NCBI RefSeq assembly: GCF_028291745.1
Contig: NZ_JAQGNQ010000009.1
Span: forward strand, 1 to 64,000
Length of the DNA stretch: 64,000 bases
DNA from: Ramlibacter sp.
GTDB lineage: Bacteria > Pseudomonadota > Gammaproteobacteria > Burkholderiales > Burkholderiaceae_C
Reading direction: 5' to 3'
In this document: positions 30,525-39,727 of the stretch, one piece after another
Numbering within the stretch: position 1 is the stretch's first letter
Layout of the letters: every line of letters starts with the position of its first letter
Program-made: the position numbers and the translations under genes
The notes under the pieces: model-generated
Databases searched by the model: none
What the model was told of the DNA's origin: nothing
Seen by the model: the letters and a program-made list of their open reading frames with translations, nothing else

Positions 30525-31772
30525 ATGGAAACCAGGCAATGCTGCATTGCCGGCGGCGGCCCCGCGGGCCTGATGCTGGGCTACCTGCTCGCGCGCGCCG
30601 GCGTGCAGGTGACGGTGCTGGAAAAGCACGCCGACTTCCTGCGCGACTTCCGCGGCGACACCATCCATCCCTCGACGCTGAACATCCTGGCCGATCTCGG
30701 CCTGCTCGAGCGCTTCCTCGCCTTGCCGCACCAGGAGGTGAGCGAACTCACGGGCGAGGTCTATGGCGAGGTGGTGACGATGGCCGACTTCCGCCATCTC
30801 CCTGCCGCGCGGCCTTTCCTGGTGCTGGTGCCGCAGTGGGACTTCCTCGACTTCATTGCGGACGAAGCGCGCAAGCTGCCCACGTTCACCTTGCGCCTGG
30901 GTGCCAAGGTCGTCGACGTGTTGCAGGAAGCTGGCCGCGTCACCGGGGTGCAGGTCCAGGAGGGCGAGCGGAGCTACGCCATCGGCGCCGCGCTGGTCGT
31001 CGGCGCGGATGGCCGCCACACCACCGTGCGCGAGGCCGCCGGCCTGCCGAGCGTGGACACCGGCGCGCCCATCGACGTGCTGTGGTTCCGCCTGCCGCGC
31101 AGCGCGAGCGACCCGGCGCGCACCGGCGGCATCATCCAGCCCGGCGCGATGCTGGTCACGCTCAATCGCGAGAGCTACTGGCAGTGCGCCTTCGTCATTC
31201 CCAAGGGCTCGCTGGCGGACCTGCAGGCGCAGGGTCTCGCTGCTTTTCGTGAGCGCGTGGCCGGAACCGCGCCCTTCCTGCGCGACGCAGTCGGCACGCT
31301 GCACGGGTGGGACGACATCAAGCTGCTCAGCGTCCAGATCAGCCACCTGCCGCACTGGTGGCGCGAGGGCCTGCTGTGCATCGGCGATGCCGCGCACGCG
31401 ATGTCGCCGGTGGGCGGCGTCGGCATCAATCTCGCGATCCAGGACGCGGTGGCCGCGGCCAACCTGCTGGCTGCTCCGCTGCGCGCAGGTCGGCTGACCA
31501 GCGCGCATCTGCAGGCGGTGCAGCGCCGGCGCGCCTGGCCCGCGCGCGTCACGCAGCGCGTGCAGGTGGCCGTGCAGAACGAGGTGCTTTCGCCCGTGCT
31601 CGCGCGTTCGCAACAGCCGTCCGGCGTGCCCTTGCCGGTGACGCTGATGCAGCGGCTGCCGCTGTTGCGTCGCCTCACGGCCCGGATGATCGGCATCGGC
31701 GTCCGGCCGGAGCGCGTGCTGCATCCCGACGGTGAACCAGCCCGGCTTCAGGACCGTCCTACACGGATGTGA
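30525..31772 (+). CDS. FAD-dependent aromatic-type monooxygenase (PHBH/UbiH fold)
   Basis: 415 residues. The N-terminal dinucleotide motif is CCIAGGGPAGLMLGYLLARAG; the DG motif is VVGADGRHTTVREAAG near 160; the second FAD motif is GLLCIGDAAHAMSPVGGVGIN near 285. This is the class A flavoprotein hydroxylase layout of p-hydroxybenzoate hydroxylase and UbiH relatives. Hydroxylation or epoxidation of an aromatic or polyketide-like substrate is usual; the substrate is unknown. The next gene starts 82 bases downstream on the same strand, so coexpression with the glycan cluster is possible. Confidence 0.85.
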   Translation: METRQCCIAGGGPAGLMLGYLLARAGVQVTVLEKHADFLRDFRGDTIHPSTLNILADLGLLERFLALPHQEVSELTGEVYGEVVTMADFRHLPAARPFLVLVPQWDFLDFIADEARKLPTFTLRLGAKVVDVLQEAGRVTGVQVQEGERSYAIGAALVVGADGRHTTVREAAGLPSVDTGAPIDVLWFRLPRSASDPARTGGIIQPGAMLVTLNRESYWQCAFVIPKGSLADLQAQGLAAFRERVAGTAPFLRDAVGTLHGWDDIKLLSVQISHLPHWWREGLLCIGDAAHAMSPVGGVGINLAIQDAVAAANLLAAPLRAGRLTSAHLQAVQRRRAWPARVTQRVQVAVQNEVLSPVLARSQQPSGVPLPVTLMQRLPLLRRLTARMIGIGVRPERVLHPDGEPARLQDRPTRM

Positions 31773-31854
31773 GCCGCTTCCTACTTGCTCTTTCCTGCTG
31801 CGGTTGCCTAATCGCGCATTGCGCCGGAGCGGGAACCGGCGACAGGGAGAAGCG

Positions 31855-34578
31855 ATGCGCCTGGTGATCTTCGGCTTGACCGTCAGTTCCTCGTGGGGCA
31901 ATGGACACGCCACCCTCTGGCGCGGACTGTGGCGGGCACTGGCCAGGCGCGGACACCACATCGTCTTCTTCGAGCGCGACGTGCCCTATTACGCCGAGCA
32001 CCGCGACCTCACCGAACTGCCCGGCGGCGAACTGGTGCTGTATCGCGACTGGGCCGACGCGCTGCCGCGTGCCAAGCGCGCGTTGCGCGATGCCGACGTG
32101 GCCATGCTCACCTCCTACTGCCCCGACGGCATCGCGGCGGCGCAATTGCTGGCCGACGGCGCGCCCTCGGCGCTCAAGGTCTTCTATGACCTCGACACGC
32201 CGGTCACGCTGGAGAACGTGCAGGCGGGACGCCCCCTCTCCTACCTTGGCCCGCGGGGCTTGCGCGACTTCGACCTGGTCCTCAGCTACACGGGCGGCCC
32301 CGCGCTGGAACAGTTGCGCACGCAACTGGGCGCGCGCCGCGTCGCCACGCTCTACGGCCACGTCGACCCGCAGGTGCACAAGCCGGTGCCACCGGTCGCC
32401 AACTATCGCTGCGGCCTCTCCTACCTGGGCACCTATGCGACCGACCGGCAGGCGGCGCTGGAACAACTGTTCATCGAGCCGGCGCGGCGCCTGCCCGAAG
32501 AGACCTTCCTGATCGGTGGCGCGCAATACCCGGCCGACTTTCCCTGGACGCGCAACATCCGATTCGTGCGGCACATGCCGCCGCCCGAGCACCCGGCCTT
32601 CTTCTCGTCCTCGCGCCTCACGCTGAACGTCACGCGCAAGGCGATGGCGGAAAACGGCCATTGCCCGTCCGGCCGCCTGTTCGAGGCGGCCGCCTGTGCC
32701 ACACCGGTGGTGAGCGACTGGTGGCCAGGCATCGAGGAGTTCTTCGAGCCCGGACGCGAAATCATCGTGGCGCGCAGCAGCGAGGATGTGATCGCGGCGC
32801 TCTCGCTCCCGGACGCGGAACTCACGCGCATCGCCGCCGCCGCGCAGCAGCGGGTGCTGAGTGCCCACACGTCGGACCGGCGCGCCGTCGAACTGGAGCG
32901 GCTGCTGGATGATGCCCGCGGCGCCAGGCCCGCGACCGCCACCCCTGGCGCCCGCAAGGCCGGTGCCACCTGGGGCATCATCCCGGCCGCTGGCCTGGGC
33001 ACGCGCATCCAGCCACTGGGCTTCTCGAAGGAACTGCTGCCGATCGGCAGCAGCCTGGTCGGGGACGTCGAGCGGCCGCGCGCGGTCAGCGAGTTCCTGG
33101 TGGAACGCATGCTCAATGCCGGCTCCGATCACATCTGCTTCGTGGTGGCGCCCGGCAAGTCGGACATCGTCCAGTACTACGGCTCGAGCGCCCGCTCGGC
33201 CGACCTCTGCTACGTGGTGCAGCCCAAGGCCGGCGGCCTGTGCGACGCGATCTTTCGCGCCAGTTCGCTGGTGCGGACTGAGGACTCCGTATTGGTCGGT
33301 CTGCCCGACACCATCTGGTTCCCCGAGGACGGCTTTGCGGCCTTGCCGGACGACGTGCTCTCCTTCCTGCTGTTCCCGGTCGACCGGCCCGAGGCCTTCG
33401 ATGCCGTGGTCACGGACGAAGCCGGCAACGTGCAGGAGATCCAGGTCAAGCACCCGGATGCCAAGACCAACTGGATCTGGGGCGCCTTCCGCATGCCCGG
33501 CCACGTGCTGCACGCGCTCGATGCACTGTGGCACGAGCGCGGGCGGCGCGACGAGTACATGGGCACCCTGGTCAATGCCTGGATCCAGGGCGGCGGCCGC
33601 GCGCTCGGCGTGCGCCACGGCGAGGCCTATGTCGACGTGGGCACCGTGCACGGCTACCGCGAGGCGCTGAACCTGCTCGGCCTGCGGCAGCGCCGCGACA
33701 CACCACCGGCACCGCAGGTCACGACGATCTGCAGCAACGCCGGCACAGCGATCGCGGCCCTGGCGCCGCCGCCGCTGGCGAGCGCGTCGGGCAGCGGGCG
33801 CCGGCAGTTCACGCGCGGCGACATCGAGGCGCGCCTGCGCGGCCTGGGCGACTGGTTCCAGAACATCGACCTCAATGGCGTGCAGACGGCGCCCGCGCAC
33901 TTCCTGGGCGACTTTCCCGCGATCAAGTGGAAGCGCTTCGCGCATGCGCTGCCGCAGGACCTCACGGGCAAGTCGGTGCTGGAGATCGGCTGCAATGCCG
34001 GCTTCTATTCCTTCGAGATGAAGCGCCGTGGCGCCACTCGCGTGCTGGGCATCGACTTCGATGACTACTACCTGAACCAGGCGCGCTTCGCCTCCGAAGT
34101 GCTGGGGTTCGAGGACGTGGAGTTCCGGCGCCTGTCGGTCTACGACCTGGCCGCGCTGCGCGAGCGCTTCGACATCGTGCTGTTCATGGGCCTGATGTAC
34201 CACCTGCGCCATCCGCTGCTGGCGCTCGACCTGATCCACGAGCATGTCGCCAAGGACTTGCTGGTGTACCAGTCGCTGCAAAGGGGCAGCGCCGACGTCG
34301 AGCCGCTGCAGGAGGATTACGACTTCTGGGAGACGGAGGTCTTCCAGCGGCCCGGTTATCCGCGCATGCACTTCGTGGAGAAGAAGTACTCGCACGACGA
34401 GACCAACTGGTGGATTCCCAACGCGGCCTGCAGCGCCGCGATGCTGCGCAGCGCGGGCTTCCAGGTCCTCGCGCATCCCGAGGAAGAGGTGTTCCTGTGC
34501 AAGCGCATGGAATTGCCGCCCGGGCCCGAAGGCCGACGCGCGGTGTATCCCGCCCGCCGGCCCGCCGCTTCCGCTTGA
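31855..34578 (+). CDS. Trifunctional fusion: CgeB-like glycosyltransferase, sugar nucleotidyltransferase, TIGR04290-type methyltransferase
   Basis: 907 residues. The start at 31855 has AGGGAGA four bases upstream. Residues 1-350: a GT-B glycosyltransferase of the CgeB/Glyco_trans_1_2 type (NGHATLWRGLWRALARRGH, GHCPSGRLFEAAACATPVVS). Residues 372-610: a GT-A nucleotidyltransferase like RmlA/GalU (GIIPAAGLGTRIQPLGFSKE, VGLPDTIWFPEDG, YVDVGTVHGYREAL). Residues 650-890: a CmoB-like SAM methyltransferase (VLEIGCNAGFYSFEMKRRG, GLMYHLRHPLLALDLI) resembling TIGR04290, which I recall as named after a Ramlibacter protein. Proline/alanine-rich linkers join the parts. Predicted to activate, transfer and methylate a sugar within one polypeptide. 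Confidence 0.82.
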   Translation: MRLVIFGLTVSSSWGNGHATLWRGLWRALARRGHHIVFFERDVPYYAEHRDLTELPGGELVLYRDWADALPRAKRALRDADVAMLTSYCPDGIAAAQLLADGAPSALKVFYDLDTPVTLENVQAGRPLSYLGPRGLRDFDLVLSYTGGPALEQLRTQLGARRVATLYGHVDPQVHKPVPPVANYRCGLSYLGTYATDRQAALEQLFIEPARRLPEETFLIGGAQYPADFPWTRNIRFVRHMPPPEHPAFFSSSRLTLNVTRKAMAENGHCPSGRLFEAAACATPVVSDWWPGIEEFFEPGREIIVARSSEDVIAALSLPDAELTRIAAAAQQRVLSAHTSDRRAVELERLLDDARGARPATATPGARKAGATWGIIPAAGLGTRIQPLGFSKELLPIGSSLVGDVERPRAVSEFLVERMLNAGSDHICFVVAPGKSDIVQYYGSSARSADLCYVVQPKAGGLCDAIFRASSLVRTEDSVLVGLPDTIWFPEDGFAALPDDVLSFLLFPVDRPEAFDAVVTDEAGNVQEIQVKHPDAKTNWIWGAFRMPGHVLHALDALWHERGRRDEYMGTLVNAWIQGGGRALGVRHGEAYVDVGTVHGYREALNLLGLRQRRDTPPAPQVTTICSNAGTAIAALAPPPLASASGSGRRQFTRGDIEARLRGLGDWFQNIDLNGVQTAPAHFLGDFPAIKWKRFAHALPQDLTGKSVLEIGCNAGFYSFEMKRRGATRVLGIDFDDYYLNQARFASEVLGFEDVEFRRLSVYDLAALRERFDIVLFMGLMYHLRHPLLALDLIHEHVAKDLLVYQSLQRGSADVEPLQEDYDFWETEVFQRPGYPRMHFVEKKYSHDETNWWIPNAACSAAMLRSAGFQVLAHPEEEVFLCKRMELPPGPEGRRAVYPARRPAASA

Positions 34579-34585
34579 GCCTGGG

Positions 34586-35434
34586 ATGCGAGCCGATTCG
34601 CACCGGGCCGGCACCGCACTGATCGCCGCATTGCGTGCACCCGCGGACGCGCCGCTGCCCGCGATCCCCGCCACCGCGGTCGTGGTGGCGCACCCCGACG
34701 ACGAAGTGGTGGGTGCCGGCTCACGGCTGCCACGCTTGCAGTCGGCGCGCTTCGTGTACGTCACCGACGGCGCACCGCGCGACGGCCGCGATGCGGCCAC
34801 GCATGCGCTCTCGGTCGCGGAGTATCGCGAGGCCCGCCGGCGCGAGCGCGATGCCGCCTTGCAGCTGTGCGGCATCGCTGCCAGCCAGGTGGTGGAGTTC
34901 GGCTGCGTCGACCAGGAAGCGGCGCTCGCACTGGTCGCCTGCAGCCGCCGCCTCGCCGAGGCCTTGGCGCAGTGGGGGACCCAGGCCGTGCTGACGCATC
35001 CCTACGAAGGCGGCCATCCGGATCACGAAGCGGCGGCCTTCATCGTGCACGCCGCGGCGGCGCTGCTGCGCGCGCACGGCCAGCCAGCGCCCGACATCGT
35101 CGAGATGACCAGCTACCACCGGGGACCCGATGGCGTGCGCACCGGCCGCTTCCTGCCGGGGGAGCGCGGCGAGGTGACGGTGGACCTCACAGCGGCGGAA
35201 CTGACGCTGCGCCGTGCGCTGCTCGACACGCACGCCACGCAAAGGCGCACCTTGACCATCTTCCAGGGCGTGACGCAGGAAGGCTGGCGCATCGCGCCGG
35301 CCTATGACTTCCGCCGCCGACCGCACGCAGGCCCGCTCTGGTACGAGCACCTCGGCTGGCCGGTCGACGGCACCCGGTTTTGCGCGCTCGCGGGCGCGGC
35401 GTTGGCGCAACTGGAACTGGAGGCGCCGCTGTGA
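34586..35434 (+). CDS. PIG-L family N-acetylglucosamine-type deacetylase
   Basis: 282 residues. The LmbE/PIG-L zinc motif is VVVAHPDDEVVGAG (His36, Asp39), and the second metal/catalytic motif THPYEGGHPDHEA covers 137-149. The family removes N-acetyl groups from GlcNAc-containing glycolipids or pseudodisaccharides (PIG-L, MshB, BshB). It starts seven bases after the fusion gene and its stop overlaps the following glycosyltransferase start (GTGA). Expected to expose an amine for later acylation by one of the downstream acyltransferases. Confidence 0.9.
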   Translation: MRADSHRAGTALIAALRAPADAPLPAIPATAVVVAHPDDEVVGAGSRLPRLQSARFVYVTDGAPRDGRDAATHALSVAEYREARRRERDAALQLCGIAASQVVEFGCVDQEAALALVACSRRLAEALAQWGTQAVLTHPYEGGHPDHEAAAFIVHAAAALLRAHGQPAPDIVEMTSYHRGPDGVRTGRFLPGERGEVTVDLTAAELTLRRALLDTHATQRRTLTIFQGVTQEGWRIAPAYDFRRRPHAGPLWYEHLGWPVDGTRFCALAGAALAQLELEAPL

Positions 35435-36498
35435 ACCTCACGGTGTTGAGCGTCGCCTATCCGTTCGCGCCGGTCGGGCCCGATTCGGTCGGCGGCGCGG
35501 AACAGGTCCTGACGCAGCTCGATGCGGCGCTGGTCGCGGCGGGCCATCGCTCCATCGTCGTGGCCAGTGCGGGATCGCGCACGCAAGGCGAGTTGCTCGC
35601 GACGCCCGCGGTCGAAGGCGCCATCACGCCGCAGCAACGCGTGCGCACCTGGGCCGCGCAGCGCCGCACCATCGAACGCGCCCTGGCGCAGCAGCACGTC
35701 GACGTGGTCCACCTGCACGGCATCGACTTTCCCGCCTACCTGCCGCCCGAGGGCCAGGTGCCGCTGCTGGCCACGCTGCACCTGCCACCCTCCTGGTACC
35801 CGCCCGAGGTGTTCGCGGGCGTGCGCCAGGACCTGTGGCTGCACTGCGTGTCGCGCTCGCAGCAACAGGCGTGTCCGGCGGGCACGCCGCAGCTCCCCGT
35901 CATCGAGAACGGCGTGCCCGTGCAGGCGCTGCAGGCGCGCTGCCGCCGGCGGCGCTTCGCACTGGCGCTGGGGCGCATCTGCCCGGAGAAGAACGTGCAT
36001 GTCGCGCTCGATGCCGGGCGGCTCGCGGGAATTCCGGTGCTGCTCGGCGGCCAGGTCTTTCCCTATGAGGCGCACGAGCGCTATTTCCACGAGCAGGTCG
36101 TGCCGCGGCTCGATGGCCAGCGGCGCTTCCTCGGTCCGCTGAATTTCCAGCGCAAGCGCCGGCTGCTGTCGGCTGCGCACTGCCTGCTGCTACCGACGCT
36201 CGCGGCCGAAACCAGTTCGCTGGTCGCGATGGAGGCGCTGGCCTGCGGCACGCCGGTGGTCGCGTTTGCCAGCGGCGCGCTCCCCGAGATCGTCGAGCAT
36301 GGCGTCACCGGCTTCCTCGTGCGCGGCACGGCGGAGATGGCCGATGCGATCGCCGCCTGCGACAGCATAGACCGCGAGCGTTGCCGCGCCACGGCGCGCG
36401 AACGCTTCTCCCTGCAACGCAGCATCGCCAGGTATTTCGATGTCTACCAGCACCTTGCCTGCGGCGAGCGCACGGCGACCCGCTGCGCGTACGCCTGA
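35431..36498 (+). CDS. Glycosyltransferase family 4 protein
   Basis: 355 residues from a GTG overlapping the deacetylase stop. The N-terminal GT-B half begins LTVLSVAYPFAPVGPDSVGGAEQVL, with the GGAEQ acceptor loop. The C-terminal donor half has ALGRICPEKNVHVALDA and ETSSLVAMEALACGTPVVAFASGALPE, the EX7E signature. No membrane segment. The GT4 family includes MshA and BshA, which also pair with PIG-L deacetylases. The 3' end overlaps the next gene by 59 bases in another frame. Confidence 0.9.
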   Translation: MNLTVLSVAYPFAPVGPDSVGGAEQVLTQLDAALVAAGHRSIVVASAGSRTQGELLATPAVEGAITPQQRVRTWAAQRRTIERALAQQHVDVVHLHGIDFPAYLPPEGQVPLLATLHLPPSWYPPEVFAGVRQDLWLHCVSRSQQQACPAGTPQLPVIENGVPVQALQARCRRRRFALALGRICPEKNVHVALDAGRLAGIPVLLGGQVFPYEAHERYFHEQVVPRLDGQRRFLGPLNFQRKRRLLSAAHCLLLPTLAAETSSLVAMEALACGTPVVAFASGALPEIVEHGVTGFLVRGTAEMADAIAACDSIDRERCRATARERFSLQRSIARYFDVYQHLACGERTATRCAYA

Positions 36499-37510
36499 GG
36501 CGCCGCTGCTCGCGCAGGCGCTGACCGACGTCGCAGCGCTGCAGCGGCTGCGTCCCGAGTGGGAGGCGCTGTGGTGGCAGGCCCGCGCGGCGACGCCCTT
36601 TCAATCGCCGCAATGGCTGCTGCCCTGGTGTCAGCACGTGGGGCAAGGCAGGCTGGCGAGCGTGGCCTTGCGCTGCCCGGACAGCGGCACACTCGTCGGC
36701 TTCGCACCGCTGTACGTGTACCGCCATCCCGAAAGCGGACAGCGCCACCTGTTTCCGCTGGGCATCGCCACGAGCGACGACCATGACATCCTCGCGCGGC
36801 CTGGCGACGAGGCTCGCGTTCTGCAGGCCCTGCTTGCGCACCTGCAGGAGCAGGGCGATGCCTTCGACGTGTTCGAGCTGCCGCAATTGCGCAGCGAGGC
36901 GTTCGTGCTGCGGCTGGCCGCCCCGCCCGGCTGGCGCCTGTCCATCGCGGAGGACGATGCGCACCCGGTGCTGGCCTGGGAGACAGCACCGGCGATTGCG
37001 CAGGCGCTCGCCGCCAACCTGCGCACCTGCCGCAATCGGGCCGCGCGCGTGGGGACCTTGCAGTTCGAGACCGCCGATGCCGCATCCCTGCCCGCCATGC
37101 TCGAAGCATTGTTCGCGTTGCACACCGCGCGCTGGAGCGAACGCGCGCAAGCCGGTGTGCTGGCCGACGCGGCGGTCCGGGCCTGGCATCGCGCGGCCGC
37201 ACCGCAGTTGCTCGCCGCCGGCATGCTGCGCCTGCAGGGCCTGCGCCTCGATGGCGAGTGGATCGCCCTGGCCCACGTGCTGGCCGATCCCGCGCCGGCG
37301 CATGCGCGCCGCAGCCGCTACTACATCGGCGGTTTCGATCCGCGGCATGCGGCACTCAGTCCCGGCGCCCTGCTGATCCACCACGCCATCGCGAGCGCGC
37401 ATGACGAGGGCGCGAGAGCCTTCGATTTCCTGCGCGGTGCCGAGCCCTACAAATACCGCTGGGGCGCGGTCGACGAGCCCCGACGCGTGTTGCGCCTGTG
37501 GCCGCGGTGA
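36440..37510 (+). CDS. CelD/BcsL-type GNAT (FemAB-like) acyltransferase
   Basis: 356 residues. A double-GNAT fold of the Acetyltransf_6 (CelD/BcsL) group: EWEALWWQARAATPFQSPQWLLPW, SVALRCPDSGTLVGFAPLYVYR, and the C-terminal signature YYIGGFDPRHAALSPGALL followed by DFLRGAEPYKYRWG. Relatives occur in exopolysaccharide and cellulose gene sets and transfer acyl or aminoacyl groups. It overlaps the GT4 gene by 59 bases; a later start would remove some overlap but shorten the conserved N-terminus. Confidence 0.85.
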   Translation: MSTSTLPAASARRPAARTPEAPLLAQALTDVAALQRLRPEWEALWWQARAATPFQSPQWLLPWCQHVGQGRLASVALRCPDSGTLVGFAPLYVYRHPESGQRHLFPLGIATSDDHDILARPGDEARVLQALLAHLQEQGDAFDVFELPQLRSEAFVLRLAAPPGWRLSIAEDDAHPVLAWETAPAIAQALAANLRTCRNRAARVGTLQFETADAASLPAMLEALFALHTARWSERAQAGVLADAAVRAWHRAAAPQLLAAGMLRLQGLRLDGEWIALAHVLADPAPAHARRSRYYIGGFDPRHAALSPGALLIHHAIASAHDEGARAFDFLRGAEPYKYRWGAVDEPRRVLRLWPR

Positions 37511-37513
37511 AGC

Positions 37514-38032
37514 ATGGACGAGCCGCTCGACGCCTTCTCGATCCGGCTGCCGGTGCTGATCCGGCCCTGCGTGGAGGCGGACCTGCCGGCGCTGGACGAC
37601 TTCAGCCGCTTCGTGGCGCACCACGTCCCGGTGCGCGAGCTGTACGAGCAGCATCGCAGCGGCCGCGCGCTGATTCTCGTCGCCGAGGTGAACGGCGCAC
37701 CCGGCGGACAGTTGTGGATCGACCTCGAGCGGCGGCGCGGCGAACTGGCCGGCGAGATCTGGGCGGTGTACGTGCTGCCCGGCCTGCGCGGCCAGGGCAT
37801 AGGCGCACGCATGGTGCGCGCGGCCGAGCAAGCGCTGGAAGCACGTGGCTGCCGCTGGGCACTGCTGGGTGTCGAGGTCGACAACCCGGACGCCCGCCGG
37901 CTGTACGAGCGCCTCGGCTACACCCTGGCGGTCACCACGCCTGCCCCCGAGGCGCCGGAGCCCTCGGCACGCGGCGCCGTCGCCCAGTGGGTCCTCAGGA
38001 AGGCGCTGCGCGCAGCGGGCACGCAGGGATAG
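37514..38032 (+). CDS. GNAT family N-acetyltransferase
   Basis: 172 residues starting three bases after the previous stop. A compact GNAT fold: IRPCVEADLPALDDFSRFV, the core strand AGEIWAVYVLPGLRGQGIG with the acetyl-CoA loop RGQGIG (92-97), and VEVDNPDARRLYERLGY. It ends the five-gene cluster. With an upstream PIG-L deacetylase, acetylation of the freed amine is a reasonable guess, by analogy with MshD in mycothiol synthesis; unproven. Confidence 0.88.
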   Translation: MDEPLDAFSIRLPVLIRPCVEADLPALDDFSRFVAHHVPVRELYEQHRSGRALILVAEVNGAPGGQLWIDLERRRGELAGEIWAVYVLPGLRGQGIGARMVRAAEQALEARGCRWALLGVEVDNPDARRLYERLGYTLAVTTPAPEAPEPSARGAVAQWVLRKALRAAGTQG

Positions 38033-38140
38033 GCGAGGCCCCACGAGCCTGCCGTGACGCGCAGGATGCGCTCGGCCGGGGGTGCAAGCGGACGGGGGAG
38101 GATCGGAGCCATGCGGCGCATTGTCGGCACGCTCCGTGAC

Positions 38141-38164
38141 AGAAAAAAGAAGACCACGGGTCTT
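38141..38164 (-). terminator. Intrinsic terminator of the sigma-factor operon
   Basis: On the minus strand AAGACC-CGT-GGTCTT (38150-38164) is followed by CTTTTTTCTGT. It lies 22 bases beyond the sigma gene stop. Confidence 0.88.
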
Positions 38165-38185
38165 GCGCGGAGGAAGCAGGACGCA

Positions 38186-38884
38186 TCAGCCGCTCACCCG
38201 GCGCAACACCCCCGCCACGATCCGGTCGCAGCGCTCGCCGTCGAAGGAGAACACGTCGCGTTCGGCCACGTCGATGTCCTGGGCCAGCGATTCGCGCAGC
38301 ATGCTGCGCGCGCGGAAGTGGCGCGTCCGCACGGTCGCTTCGGGGATATCGAGGCAACGGGCCGTTTCCTCGACGCTCAGTTCCTCGACGCAGCGCAACA
38401 CGAAGACGGTGCGGAAGGTTTCCGGCAGTTCGTCCAGCTTGCGTTCCAGCACGGCTCGCAACTCCGCACGCAGCAGCGCGCGGTCCGGCCTGTGAGTCTC
38501 ATCGCTGGCCATGGCTGCGTGCTCCTGTTCGTCCGGGCCGCCCAGGCTCACCATGGGCACGATGTTGTCCCGGCGCGCCTGCCGGCGCATGCGGCCAAGG
38601 CACTGGTTCACCACGACCCGCGACAGCCAGGTGGCCAGGCTCGCCTCGCCGCGGAAATTGGCCAGCGACTGATAGGCCGCCAGGTAGGCGTCCTGCAGCG
38701 CGTCCTCGGCCTCGGCGTCGTTGCGCAGCATGGAGCGCGCGACGCGATACAGGCGCCGGTTGTAGCGGCGCATCAGCAGTTCGAAGGCGCCGCTCTCGCC
38801 GGCCAGCACGCGCCGCGCCAGCGTGGCGTCGTCGATATCGGCGGGCAGCGGCGCGGACTGCAGGGGACCCGGGGTGCGCGTCAT
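38186..38884 (-). CDS. ECF-type RNA polymerase sigma factor
   Basis: 232 residues from the ATG at 38884, overlapping the cupredoxin stop. Region 2 is FELLMRRYNRRLYRVARSML with NDAEAEDALQDAYLAAYQSL and the -10 recognition helix FRGEASLATWLSRVVVNQCL. Region 4 is LDELPETFRTVFVLRCVEEL with SVEETARCLDIPEATVRTRH. No anti-sigma gene is adjacent; instead it follows a cupredoxin and a DUF4142 gene. Regulation is probably through an unlinked factor or by transcription; the signal may be envelope or metal stress. Confidence 0.92.
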   Translation of the reverse strand: MTRTPGPLQSAPLPADIDDATLARRVLAGESGAFELLMRRYNRRLYRVARSMLRNDAEAEDALQDAYLAAYQSLANFRGEASLATWLSRVVVNQCLGRMRRQARRDNIVPMVSLGGPDEQEHAAMASDETHRPDRALLRAELRAVLERKLDELPETFRTVFVLRCVEELSVEETARCLDIPEATVRTRHFRARSMLRESLAQDIDVAERDVFSFDGERCDRIVAGVLRRVSG

Positions 38885-39201
38885 CACTGCACCACCAGCG
38901 TTGCCTTCATCCCGGGATGGAAGGTGCAGACGTAGTCGTAGGTTCCGGGCTTGGGGGCGGCGTGCGACCAGCTCTTGCCGGGCGCGATGGCACCGGAGTC
39001 GAACACGCCCTGGGCCGTGGCCGTGTGCGGCACGACGTCCTTGTTGTTCCACACGATGCGGTCTCCGCGCTTGACGGTCACCGTGGCGGGCAGGATCTTC
39101 ATGCCCTCCATCGTGAGGGTATGGGTCTCGGCACGGGCCGCGAACGGGAGCGCCGCGGCCAGCAGCAACACGGCAGGGGGCAGCAGGCTGCGGCGCTTCA
39201 T
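38884..39201 (-). CDS. Cupredoxin (plastocyanin/amicyanin-like)
   Basis: 105 residues. Signal peptide 1-24 (FAARA). A type 1 copper site is complete: His59 (VVPHTATA), Cys92, His95 and Met98 in YVCTFHPGMKATL, the spacing of amicyanin-like small blue proteins. Periplasmic electron carrier or copper-binding protein. One base separates it from the upstream DUF4142 gene, and its stop overlaps the sigma factor start. Confidence 0.93.
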   Translation of the reverse strand: MKRRSLLPPAVLLLAAALPFAARAETHTLTMEGMKILPATVTVKRGDRIVWNNKDVVPHTATAQGVFDSGAIAPGKSWSHAAPKPGTYDYVCTFHPGMKATLVVQ

Positions 39202-39202
39202 G

Positions 39203-39727
39203 TCATTTGCCCAGGGAGGCCTGCAGGTGCTTGGCGTGGTCGAGGTGGGTCGCGATGGCCGGGCGCACCTTCACGATCAGCTCCTTCAGGTCGGCGTTCC
39301 TGGCCGAAGGGATCAGCGTCTTGTCGATGGCGTCGAGCACGGCCTGGTGGTAGTCCACCTCGTGGTCGACGTAGGCCTTGTCGAAGTCGGCGCCCTTGAG
39401 CTTCTTCAGCTTCGCGATGTTCTCCTCGCCGCCCTTCTTGAGACTGTTGCTGGTCTCGCTCGCCTCGGGCTTGACCTTCAGTTTGGTGACCAGAGCGACC
39501 GCCTGCTTGTTGACCGCGCCGTGGTCCGTGATCATCTGCTGGGCGAACTGGTCGACCTCCTTGTTCTTCGACTTGCTCTTGGCCAGCTTGCCGGCGTCGA
39601 TGTCGACCTGGTTGGCGGTCACCACGATGGCGGCGATCTGCGGATCGCTGGGCCCCTGCTGCGCGTAGACGGGAAGCAACGCGCTGGCCAGCGCGGCCAG
39701 CAGGACGGGTTTCATCGTTCGAATCAT
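39203..39727 (-). CDS. DUF4142 periplasmic protein
   Basis: 174 residues. The start at 39727 has AGGAGA seven bases upstream. Signal peptide to about residue 22 (LLPVYAQ), then a ferritin-like DUF4142 helical bundle: IVVTANQVDIDAGKLAKSKS, FAQQMITDHGAVNKQ, and VDHEVDYHQAVLDAIDKTLI with conserved His and Glu. The family is found in envelope-stress operons; its activity is unknown. First gene of the DUF4142-cupredoxin-sigma unit. Confidence 0.9.
   Translation of the reverse strand: MIRTMKPVLLAALASALLPVYAQQGPSDPQIAAIVVTANQVDIDAGKLAKSKSKNKEVDQFAQQMITDHGAVNKQAVALVTKLKVKPEASETSNSLKKGGEENIAKLKKLKGADFDKAYVDHEVDYHQAVLDAIDKTLIPSARNADLKELIVKVRPAIATHLDHAKHLQASLGK

Follow-up and report, generated by a model that had tools for sequence, protein, structure and literature searches.

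A trifunctional sugar-enzyme fusion in Ramlibacter and a candidate two-locus pathway for a methylated, inositol-based oligosaccharide

The stretch of DNA analysed here (64,000 nucleotides of contig NZ_JAQGNQ010000009.1 from Ramlibacter sp.; hereafter the window) carries on its plus strand, at 31855-38032, a run of five genes with seven sugar-modifying domains, and raises the question of whether this run is a pathway in itself or a part of a larger one. An earlier description made from the letters alone (the sequence-only reading) had proposed a dedicated pathway in which everything needed to activate, transfer, deacetylate, acylate and methylate a sugar is present. The run is real, and its first four genes are conserved as neighbours in other genomes, which speaks for a dedicated pathway; the claim of completeness failed, because most of the pathway genes, including an inositol-phosphate synthase, are found on another contig of the same genome, C92. 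The idea of the five genes as a complete pathway was thus rejected: what the window holds is no more than the extension of a larger pathway, with the core on C92. We think it somewhat probable that genes 1 to 4 serve as the extension module in a pathway split over two loci, for a methylated, inositol-based oligosaccharide.

The five window genes and their enzyme families

Gene 1 (31855-34578, ATG start) is a single reading frame of 907 amino acids encoding a trifunctional fusion: a CgeB-type glycosyltransferase part (31855-32949; PF13524 match at residues 204-348, 134.9 bits), a sugar-1-phosphate nucleotidyltransferase domain (32974-33672, residues 374-606; PF00483, 34.7 bits) and a TIGR04290 methyltransferase domain (33823-34500, residues 657-882; 373.8 bits). 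Seven nucleotides further on, gene 2 (34586-35434, ATG start; PF02585, 66.4 bits) encodes a PIG-L type N-deacetylase; it is overlapped by 4 nucleotides by gene 3 (35431-36498, GTG start; PF13692, 65.6 bits), a GT4 glycosyltransferase, which in turn is overlapped by 59 nucleotides by gene 4 (36440-37510, ATG start; PF13480, 99.8 bits), a CelD/BioF2-like transferase. The overlap between genes 3 and 4 is also present in three other loci (L008, L011, L013). Gene 5 (37514-38032, ATG start; PF00583, 66.4 bits), a GNAT acetyltransferase, follows after a gap of 3 nucleotides. All these genes are on the plus strand; genes 2 and 3 were scanned for domains as slightly longer reading frames. All domain scores in the window exceed the curated cut-offs (300 bits for TIGR04290, a gathering score of 25 bits for PF13524), there are no internal stops in any of the five genes, and the G+C content by codon position is coding-like across them (0.78/0.55/0.86 in gene 2). 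Coordinates, gaps, overlaps and domain families agree with the sequence-only reading, as do the searches it had proposed with the TIGR04290, PF13524, PF02585 and PF13480 models. A consensus scan of 31700-38300 gave no sigma-70-like promoter.

An alignment of 14 sequences shows that the nucleotidyltransferase has its G-x-G-[TS]-R loop intact, and its nearest solved relatives are RmlA enzymes; those of the methyltransferase domain are EvdMO1 and CmoB-type enzymes. In gene 2, PIG-L membership is given by the gathering score together with the AHPDDE and HPDH motifs, which are invariant in nine sequences. No solved relative of gene 4 is detectable by sequence; its predicted structure shows a FemX-like tandem fold, with FemX-type transferases as the best matches, ahead of coenzyme A acyltransferases. 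Since the FemX-type folds match better, simple acetylation by the predicted enzyme is not assured; the CelD-type family assignment of the sequence-only reading held. The model name of TIGR04290, meth_Rta_06860, fits the earlier remark that the family is named from a Ramlibacter locus, presumably Rta_06860 of Ramlibacter tataouinensis. We know of no product assigned to TIGR04290 or to TIGR04295, a second family annotated in related loci. In the open-access literature we found no paper naming either family, nor one describing such a set of enzymes, and a search of PHROGs gave nothing useful.

The partner locus and the conservation of the two modules

When gene 1 was searched against its own assembly (148 contigs, with the window on C88), three CgeB-type stretches and a second TIGR04290 domain were found at 8.9-13.0 kb of C92. 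The run on C92 comprises TIGR04290, CgeB1, CgeB2, CgeB3, a GT4 glycosyltransferase, a Gfo/Idh protein, a zinc dehydrogenase (ADH) and two epimerase/dehydratases, with the inositol-phosphate synthase Ino1 divergent from them; past Ino1, a glycosidase-like protein comes first together with a histidine phosphatase, and further along there is one more epimerase, the third. Ino1 scores 536 bits with TIGR03450, below the cut-off of 638. The closest model for the Gfo/Idh protein is inositol 2-dehydrogenase (104 bits, cut-off 355) and that for ADH is scyllo-inosose 3-dehydrogenase (94.6 bits, cut-off 450), both again below cut-off. Where assemblies of the genus have long contigs, a large distance separates the two loci (at 0.72 and 1.68 Mb in G338 and at 2.37 and 1.23 Mb in G311), so that the split between the window and C92 is real.

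A tree of CgeB sequences (55 rows from 20 loci, of 108 rows at hand, with a program warning of long branches meeting) places the window CgeB in the fourth of four conserved groups, each spanning lineages. As the four types separate across lineages, the window CgeB counts as the fourth member of a set (CgeB4) and not as a recent duplicate; one row from L021, called CgeB4 by best BLAST hit, falls beside CgeB1, a label that needs two changes on the tree. In the methyltransferase tree, calculated without the long branch of L021, the window type clusters with sequences from other taxa, apart from a branch formed by the genus's C92 type.

The two modules occur together. Among 59 genomes of the genus, 16 have a match to gene 1 at an E-value of 1e-60, and the C92-type Ino1 is present in exactly the same 16. 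A window-type locus (best matches with 68-100% identity) is found in 10 genomes, all within the 16, the other 6 having core-type matches only; the presence of Ino1 in 10 of 10 window-type genomes has a hypergeometric P of 1.3e-7. In 299 genomes of the phylum, TIGR04290 scores over cut-off in 10, and a TIGR03450 match at an E-value of 1e-60 accompanies it in 9 of the 10, against 27 of 299 overall (P = 9.5e-10); both P values ignore shared ancestry.

Relatives of gene 1 are encoded at 14 loci among the genome contigs searched, in Ramlibacter, another Comamonadaceae metagenome-assembled genome, an alphaproteobacterial metagenome-assembled genome, Chthoniobacterales/Spartobacteria, a Gemmatimonad and Acidobacterium. 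The CgeB, nucleotidyltransferase and methyltransferase parts adjoin one another in all nine other Comamonadaceae loci. The latter two are fused in 10 of 10 loci of this family (window included) and in 0 of the 11 loci from elsewhere that allowed a judgement on both; the fusion extends to CgeB in only 3 of the 10 (window, L008, L011). PIG-L, GT4 and gene 4 follow in six of the nine Comamonadaceae loci with enough flanking sequence. In three loci of Verrucomicrobia (L015, L016, L020) the order, with Epi for epimerase, NTP for nucleotidyltransferase and MT for methyltransferase, is Epi2-(Epi1)-ADH-GT4-CgeB3-CgeB2-CgeB1-Ino1-CgeB4-NTP-MT-glycosidase-like, there being no match to Epi1 in L016; in L020 the PIG-L, GT4 and gene 4 counterparts come after the glycosidase-like gene, and the set in L014 is similar. 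Core and extension genes stand side by side, as far as the fetched stretches reach, in L014, L015, L016, L018, L019, L020, L054-L058 and L069; combined clusters of this kind were found in Verrucomicrobia, an alphaproteobacterial metagenome-assembled genome, Bradyrhizobium and one further genus. Among plasmid records, that of Bradyrhizobium sp. 195 holds both parts, and 132 of 72,556 records match the window methyltransferase domain at an E-value of 1e-40. The core without the extension is found in Sinorhizobium meliloti 1021 (on pSymB, with ino1 at about 255 kb), Roseomonas mucosa, Azospirillum argentinense and other Ramlibacter.

Over 43 loci three types of module can be recognized: the core; the core with CgeB4/NTP; and these with GT4 and gene 4 in addition (13 loci), where PIG-L is present in 8 of the 13 (window, L008, L011, L012, L013, L014, L020, L036). 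These loci were collected via gene 1 or TIGR04290, a sampling in which stand-alone modules could not show. No counterpart of gene 5 exists in the 42 other loci, including 5 other Comamonadaceae loci with gene 4; with a presence in 1 of 43 loci it was rejected as a member of the cluster and is probably a bystander. The comparison of neighbourhoods on which the sequence-only reading had staked its five-gene cluster thus upholds genes 1 to 4, which are neighbours elsewhere, and drops gene 5.

Promoters, proposed pathway and alternatives

The upstream regions of the operons offer some indication of use. The published consensus of the general-stress sigma factor EcfG is GGAAC-N17-20-GTT (PMC6599016). 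We tried the motif in three forms (a strict GGAAC-N16-17-CGTT, a looser one and the published consensus); the published form is present in 11 of 25 operon upstream regions (200 nucleotides each) of alphaproteobacterial loci, and in 9 of 12 such loci. Relative to ino1 it lies at -69 in all five of L054-L058 (for L055 and L057 the ino1 start was placed by hand after those of congeners), at -73 in S. meliloti and at -75 in Bradyrhizobium. In 400 Markov-resampled sets the mean was 0.33 and the maximum 3 of 25, with an own background of 0.02 per 200 nucleotides, and of eight control five-letter cores seven gave 0 matches and one gave 3. Judging by these motifs, the promoters of the alphaproteobacterial clusters look like general-stress promoters. 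In the portions of its main text available, a paper on S. meliloti sigma factors contains no mention of SMb202, inositol or glycosyl (PMC6180224).

From the enzyme families we infer the following sequence of steps. Ino1 would make inositol phosphate, from which the histidine phosphatase would release inositol; the two dehydrogenases, which are missing where TIGR04295 is present, would adjust the inositol ring. GT4 and CgeB1-3 would then build an oligosaccharide on inositol, with nucleotide sugars provided by the epimerases, and the core TIGR04290 enzyme would O-methylate it. The window proteins would extend this product: the nucleotidyltransferase domain of gene 1 would activate one more sugar phosphate, the fused CgeB4 would transfer the activated sugar and the fused methyltransferase would methylate it, the three-domain fusion being informative as to which activation, transfer and methylation steps go together. 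The second GT4 (gene 3) would add an N-acetyl-amino sugar, PIG-L (gene 2) would strip off its acetyl group, and the amine thus exposed would be acylated or aminoacylated by the Fem-like product of gene 4. As export and polymerase genes are absent from the cluster, the glycoside made is probably soluble or capped, and given the general-stress-like promoters in alphaproteobacteria its likeliest use is that of a protectant in drying or osmotic stress. Plants have inositol-based, stress-linked sugars in galactinol, the raffinose-family oligosaccharides and the O-methyl inositols; the product of the cluster would work alike, the likeness being in the proposed product.

A set of observations weighs against this scheme. 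That the glycan is rooted in inositol is read from Ino1 and from the low-scoring model matches of the dehydrogenases. Since GT4 and gene 4 occur in L054-L058 with no match to PIG-L, gene 4 may act without a deacetylated amine. Besides the shared ancestry left out of the P values, one genome (G265) has TIGR04290 with no TIGR03450 match genome-wide, and 18 of the 27 genomes with a TIGR03450 match have no TIGR04290 over cut-off. As for the promoters, L054-L058 are one genus, the EcfG set leaves out L014 and L060, the motif is missing in 3 of the 12 alphaproteobacterial loci (L067, L068, L061), and its strict form stands upstream of ino1 in L069 only. Stress control in the lineage of the window is unsupported, since the motif occurs in 0 of 15 Ramlibacter/Comamonadaceae upstream regions.

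The main rival is an inositol-bearing surface glycan: the two loci would make or decorate, for example, the cyst exopolysaccharide (EPS), its assembly relying on a flippase and a polymerase encoded at other places in the genome. Surface polysaccharide clusters of the Wzx/Wzy or ABC type share with ours the nucleotide-sugar enzymes, glycosyltransferases and decorating enzymes, and the CgeB family is named after a Bacillus spore-coat protein. The parts available of a study of the cyst EPS of R. tataouinensis describe O-methyl, acetyl and succinyl groups, pentoses and amide-bound lysine, mention a possible glucosamine signal, and list no inositol in the repeat unit (PMC9658432). In the same study myo-inositol was the internal standard for gas chromatography, which could not show inositol of the sample's own, so that this method cannot exclude it from the EPS. 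The main text of the R. tataouinensis genome paper does not mention inositol (PMC3164672). If G338 is R. tataouinensis, the corresponding locus of that species (L039) lacks PIG-L, GT4 and gene 4. The clusters differ from those for surface polysaccharides in that no Wzx, Wzy, initiating transferase, ABC exporter or multi-pass membrane protein is seen inside them; the genome outside the cluster was not searched for these functions. Proteins with at least three transmembrane segments lie only outside the cluster in 12 loci (genes called by a simple program, with some strands misread), and number 0 among the 18 cluster genes of the genome itself and 0 among the 40 annotated cluster genes of L067-L069. 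By Pfam and hydropathy, then, the earlier statement that the cluster has no flippase, polymerase or lipid-carrier gene is borne out. We regard the surface glycan as a minority possibility that deserves to be kept in mind.

A secreted or antibiotic-like pseudo-oligosaccharide, in the style of aminocyclitols or streptothricin, seems improbable. The predicted overall fold of gene 4 resembles the aminoacyl-tRNA-dependent synthases Sbb17/Sba18 (PDB 9wqx and 9wqy, with streptothrisamine), and the acceptor in our scheme would likewise be an amino sugar; the likeness is in the fold only, and the donor there is an aminoacyl-tRNA. No resistance, exporter or aminotransferase gene was noted in the cluster, and its presence in several phyla together with the stress-type alphaproteobacterial promoters suits a physiological role better than an antibiotic. 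A mycothiol-like low-molecular-weight thiol is very improbable. There is a parallel with mycothiol biosynthesis (Ino1-MshA-MshB-MshC-MshD): Ino1 reaches 536 bits with the mycothiol INO1 model, GT4, PIG-L and GNAT, or an N-acyl-type transferase, correspond to MshA, MshB and MshD, and a profile of PIG-L scores 25 bits with MshB. The mycothiol models all score below cut-off (MshA 47.8/462.5, MshC 287.7/485.1, MshD 38.8/163.1, INO1 536/638 bits), gene 2 matched no NCBIfam model at an E-value of 0.001, and the four CgeB enzymes and the methyltransferases, which the cluster adds together with epimerases and a nucleotidyltransferase, have no place in that pathway, which was rejected. That the genes are chance neighbours with no common pathway is hardly credible: gene 5 is indeed not conserved, yet for genes 1 to 4 the idea is already contradicted by the order and fusions conserved in Ramlibacter and by the same genes adjoining in other phyla.

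If the two-locus reading is right, its reach may be wider than Ramlibacter. The enzyme families are known ones and the cluster is, by its content, a carbohydrate biosynthetic cluster; related gene sets are present on the S. meliloti megaplasmid and in Bradyrhizobium, Azospirillum, Roseomonas, Ramlibacter and soil Verrucomicrobia. Quite tentatively, they could define a class of stress-linked glycans: a methylated inositol pseudo-oligosaccharide made with up to four CgeB enzymes, spread over phyla (probably by transfer) including S. meliloti, with a permuted glycosidase-like core enzyme and, in the window version, a tRNA-derived amino acid on an amino sugar. Were the stress-type promoters and the inositol-containing product both true, many bacteria would make a protective sugar not yet looked for.

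Other conserved proteins and neighbouring genes

The glycosidase-like protein of the core (about 310 residues, clan A) is conserved, with 72% mean identity in 18 sequences, and begins at its own WNEPN motif; copies are encoded at C92:19649-20530 (start at 19649 in L007), L044:17886-18821, L054:10278-11210 and L016:12628-13551. Its C-terminal residues 197-294 align to PslG 21-129 (8 bits, weak alone) and its N-terminal residues 3-152 to PslG 132-300 (20 bits), a swapped alignment that would be the signature of a circularly permuted TIM barrel. The structural model has eight strands and a pLDDT of 79; Foldseek and VIA-align found for it mostly other TIM barrels. Swapping the halves raises the Pfam scores only slightly (19.4 to 21.7, 18.9 to 20.9 and 23.5 to 24.7 bits).

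A B12-binding radical-SAM protein of family TIGR04295 (L021, L060, L068, L069) never shares a locus with ADH (18 loci) or Gfo/Idh (16), some loci being cut by contig or fetch ends; this mutual exclusion suggests two chemical routes to the same step.

Next to the window genes, the minus strand at 38186-39715 carries an extracytoplasmic function (ECF) sigma factor gene, a small gene and a gene that we take to be DUF4142-like. The ECF sigma gene downstream and a flavin adenine dinucleotide (FAD) oxidoreductase upstream have matches only in the window among the 43 loci, and were rejected as members of the cluster.

In the alphaproteobacteria a protein of about 580 residues accompanies the cluster, often divergent from ino1 (L054 4007-5755, L066 28420-30087, L067 8441-10201, L068 21775-23529); for the copy in L054, neither Pfam nor NCBIfam gives a match. 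Five loci, belonging to two phyla, have a DUF1003 gene close to the cluster (L015 16141-16635, L020 730-1239, L066 35784-36257, L068 10535-11014, L069 3415-3948), with weak matches also in L048 and L050, and in Paracoccus yeei it stands beside ino1.

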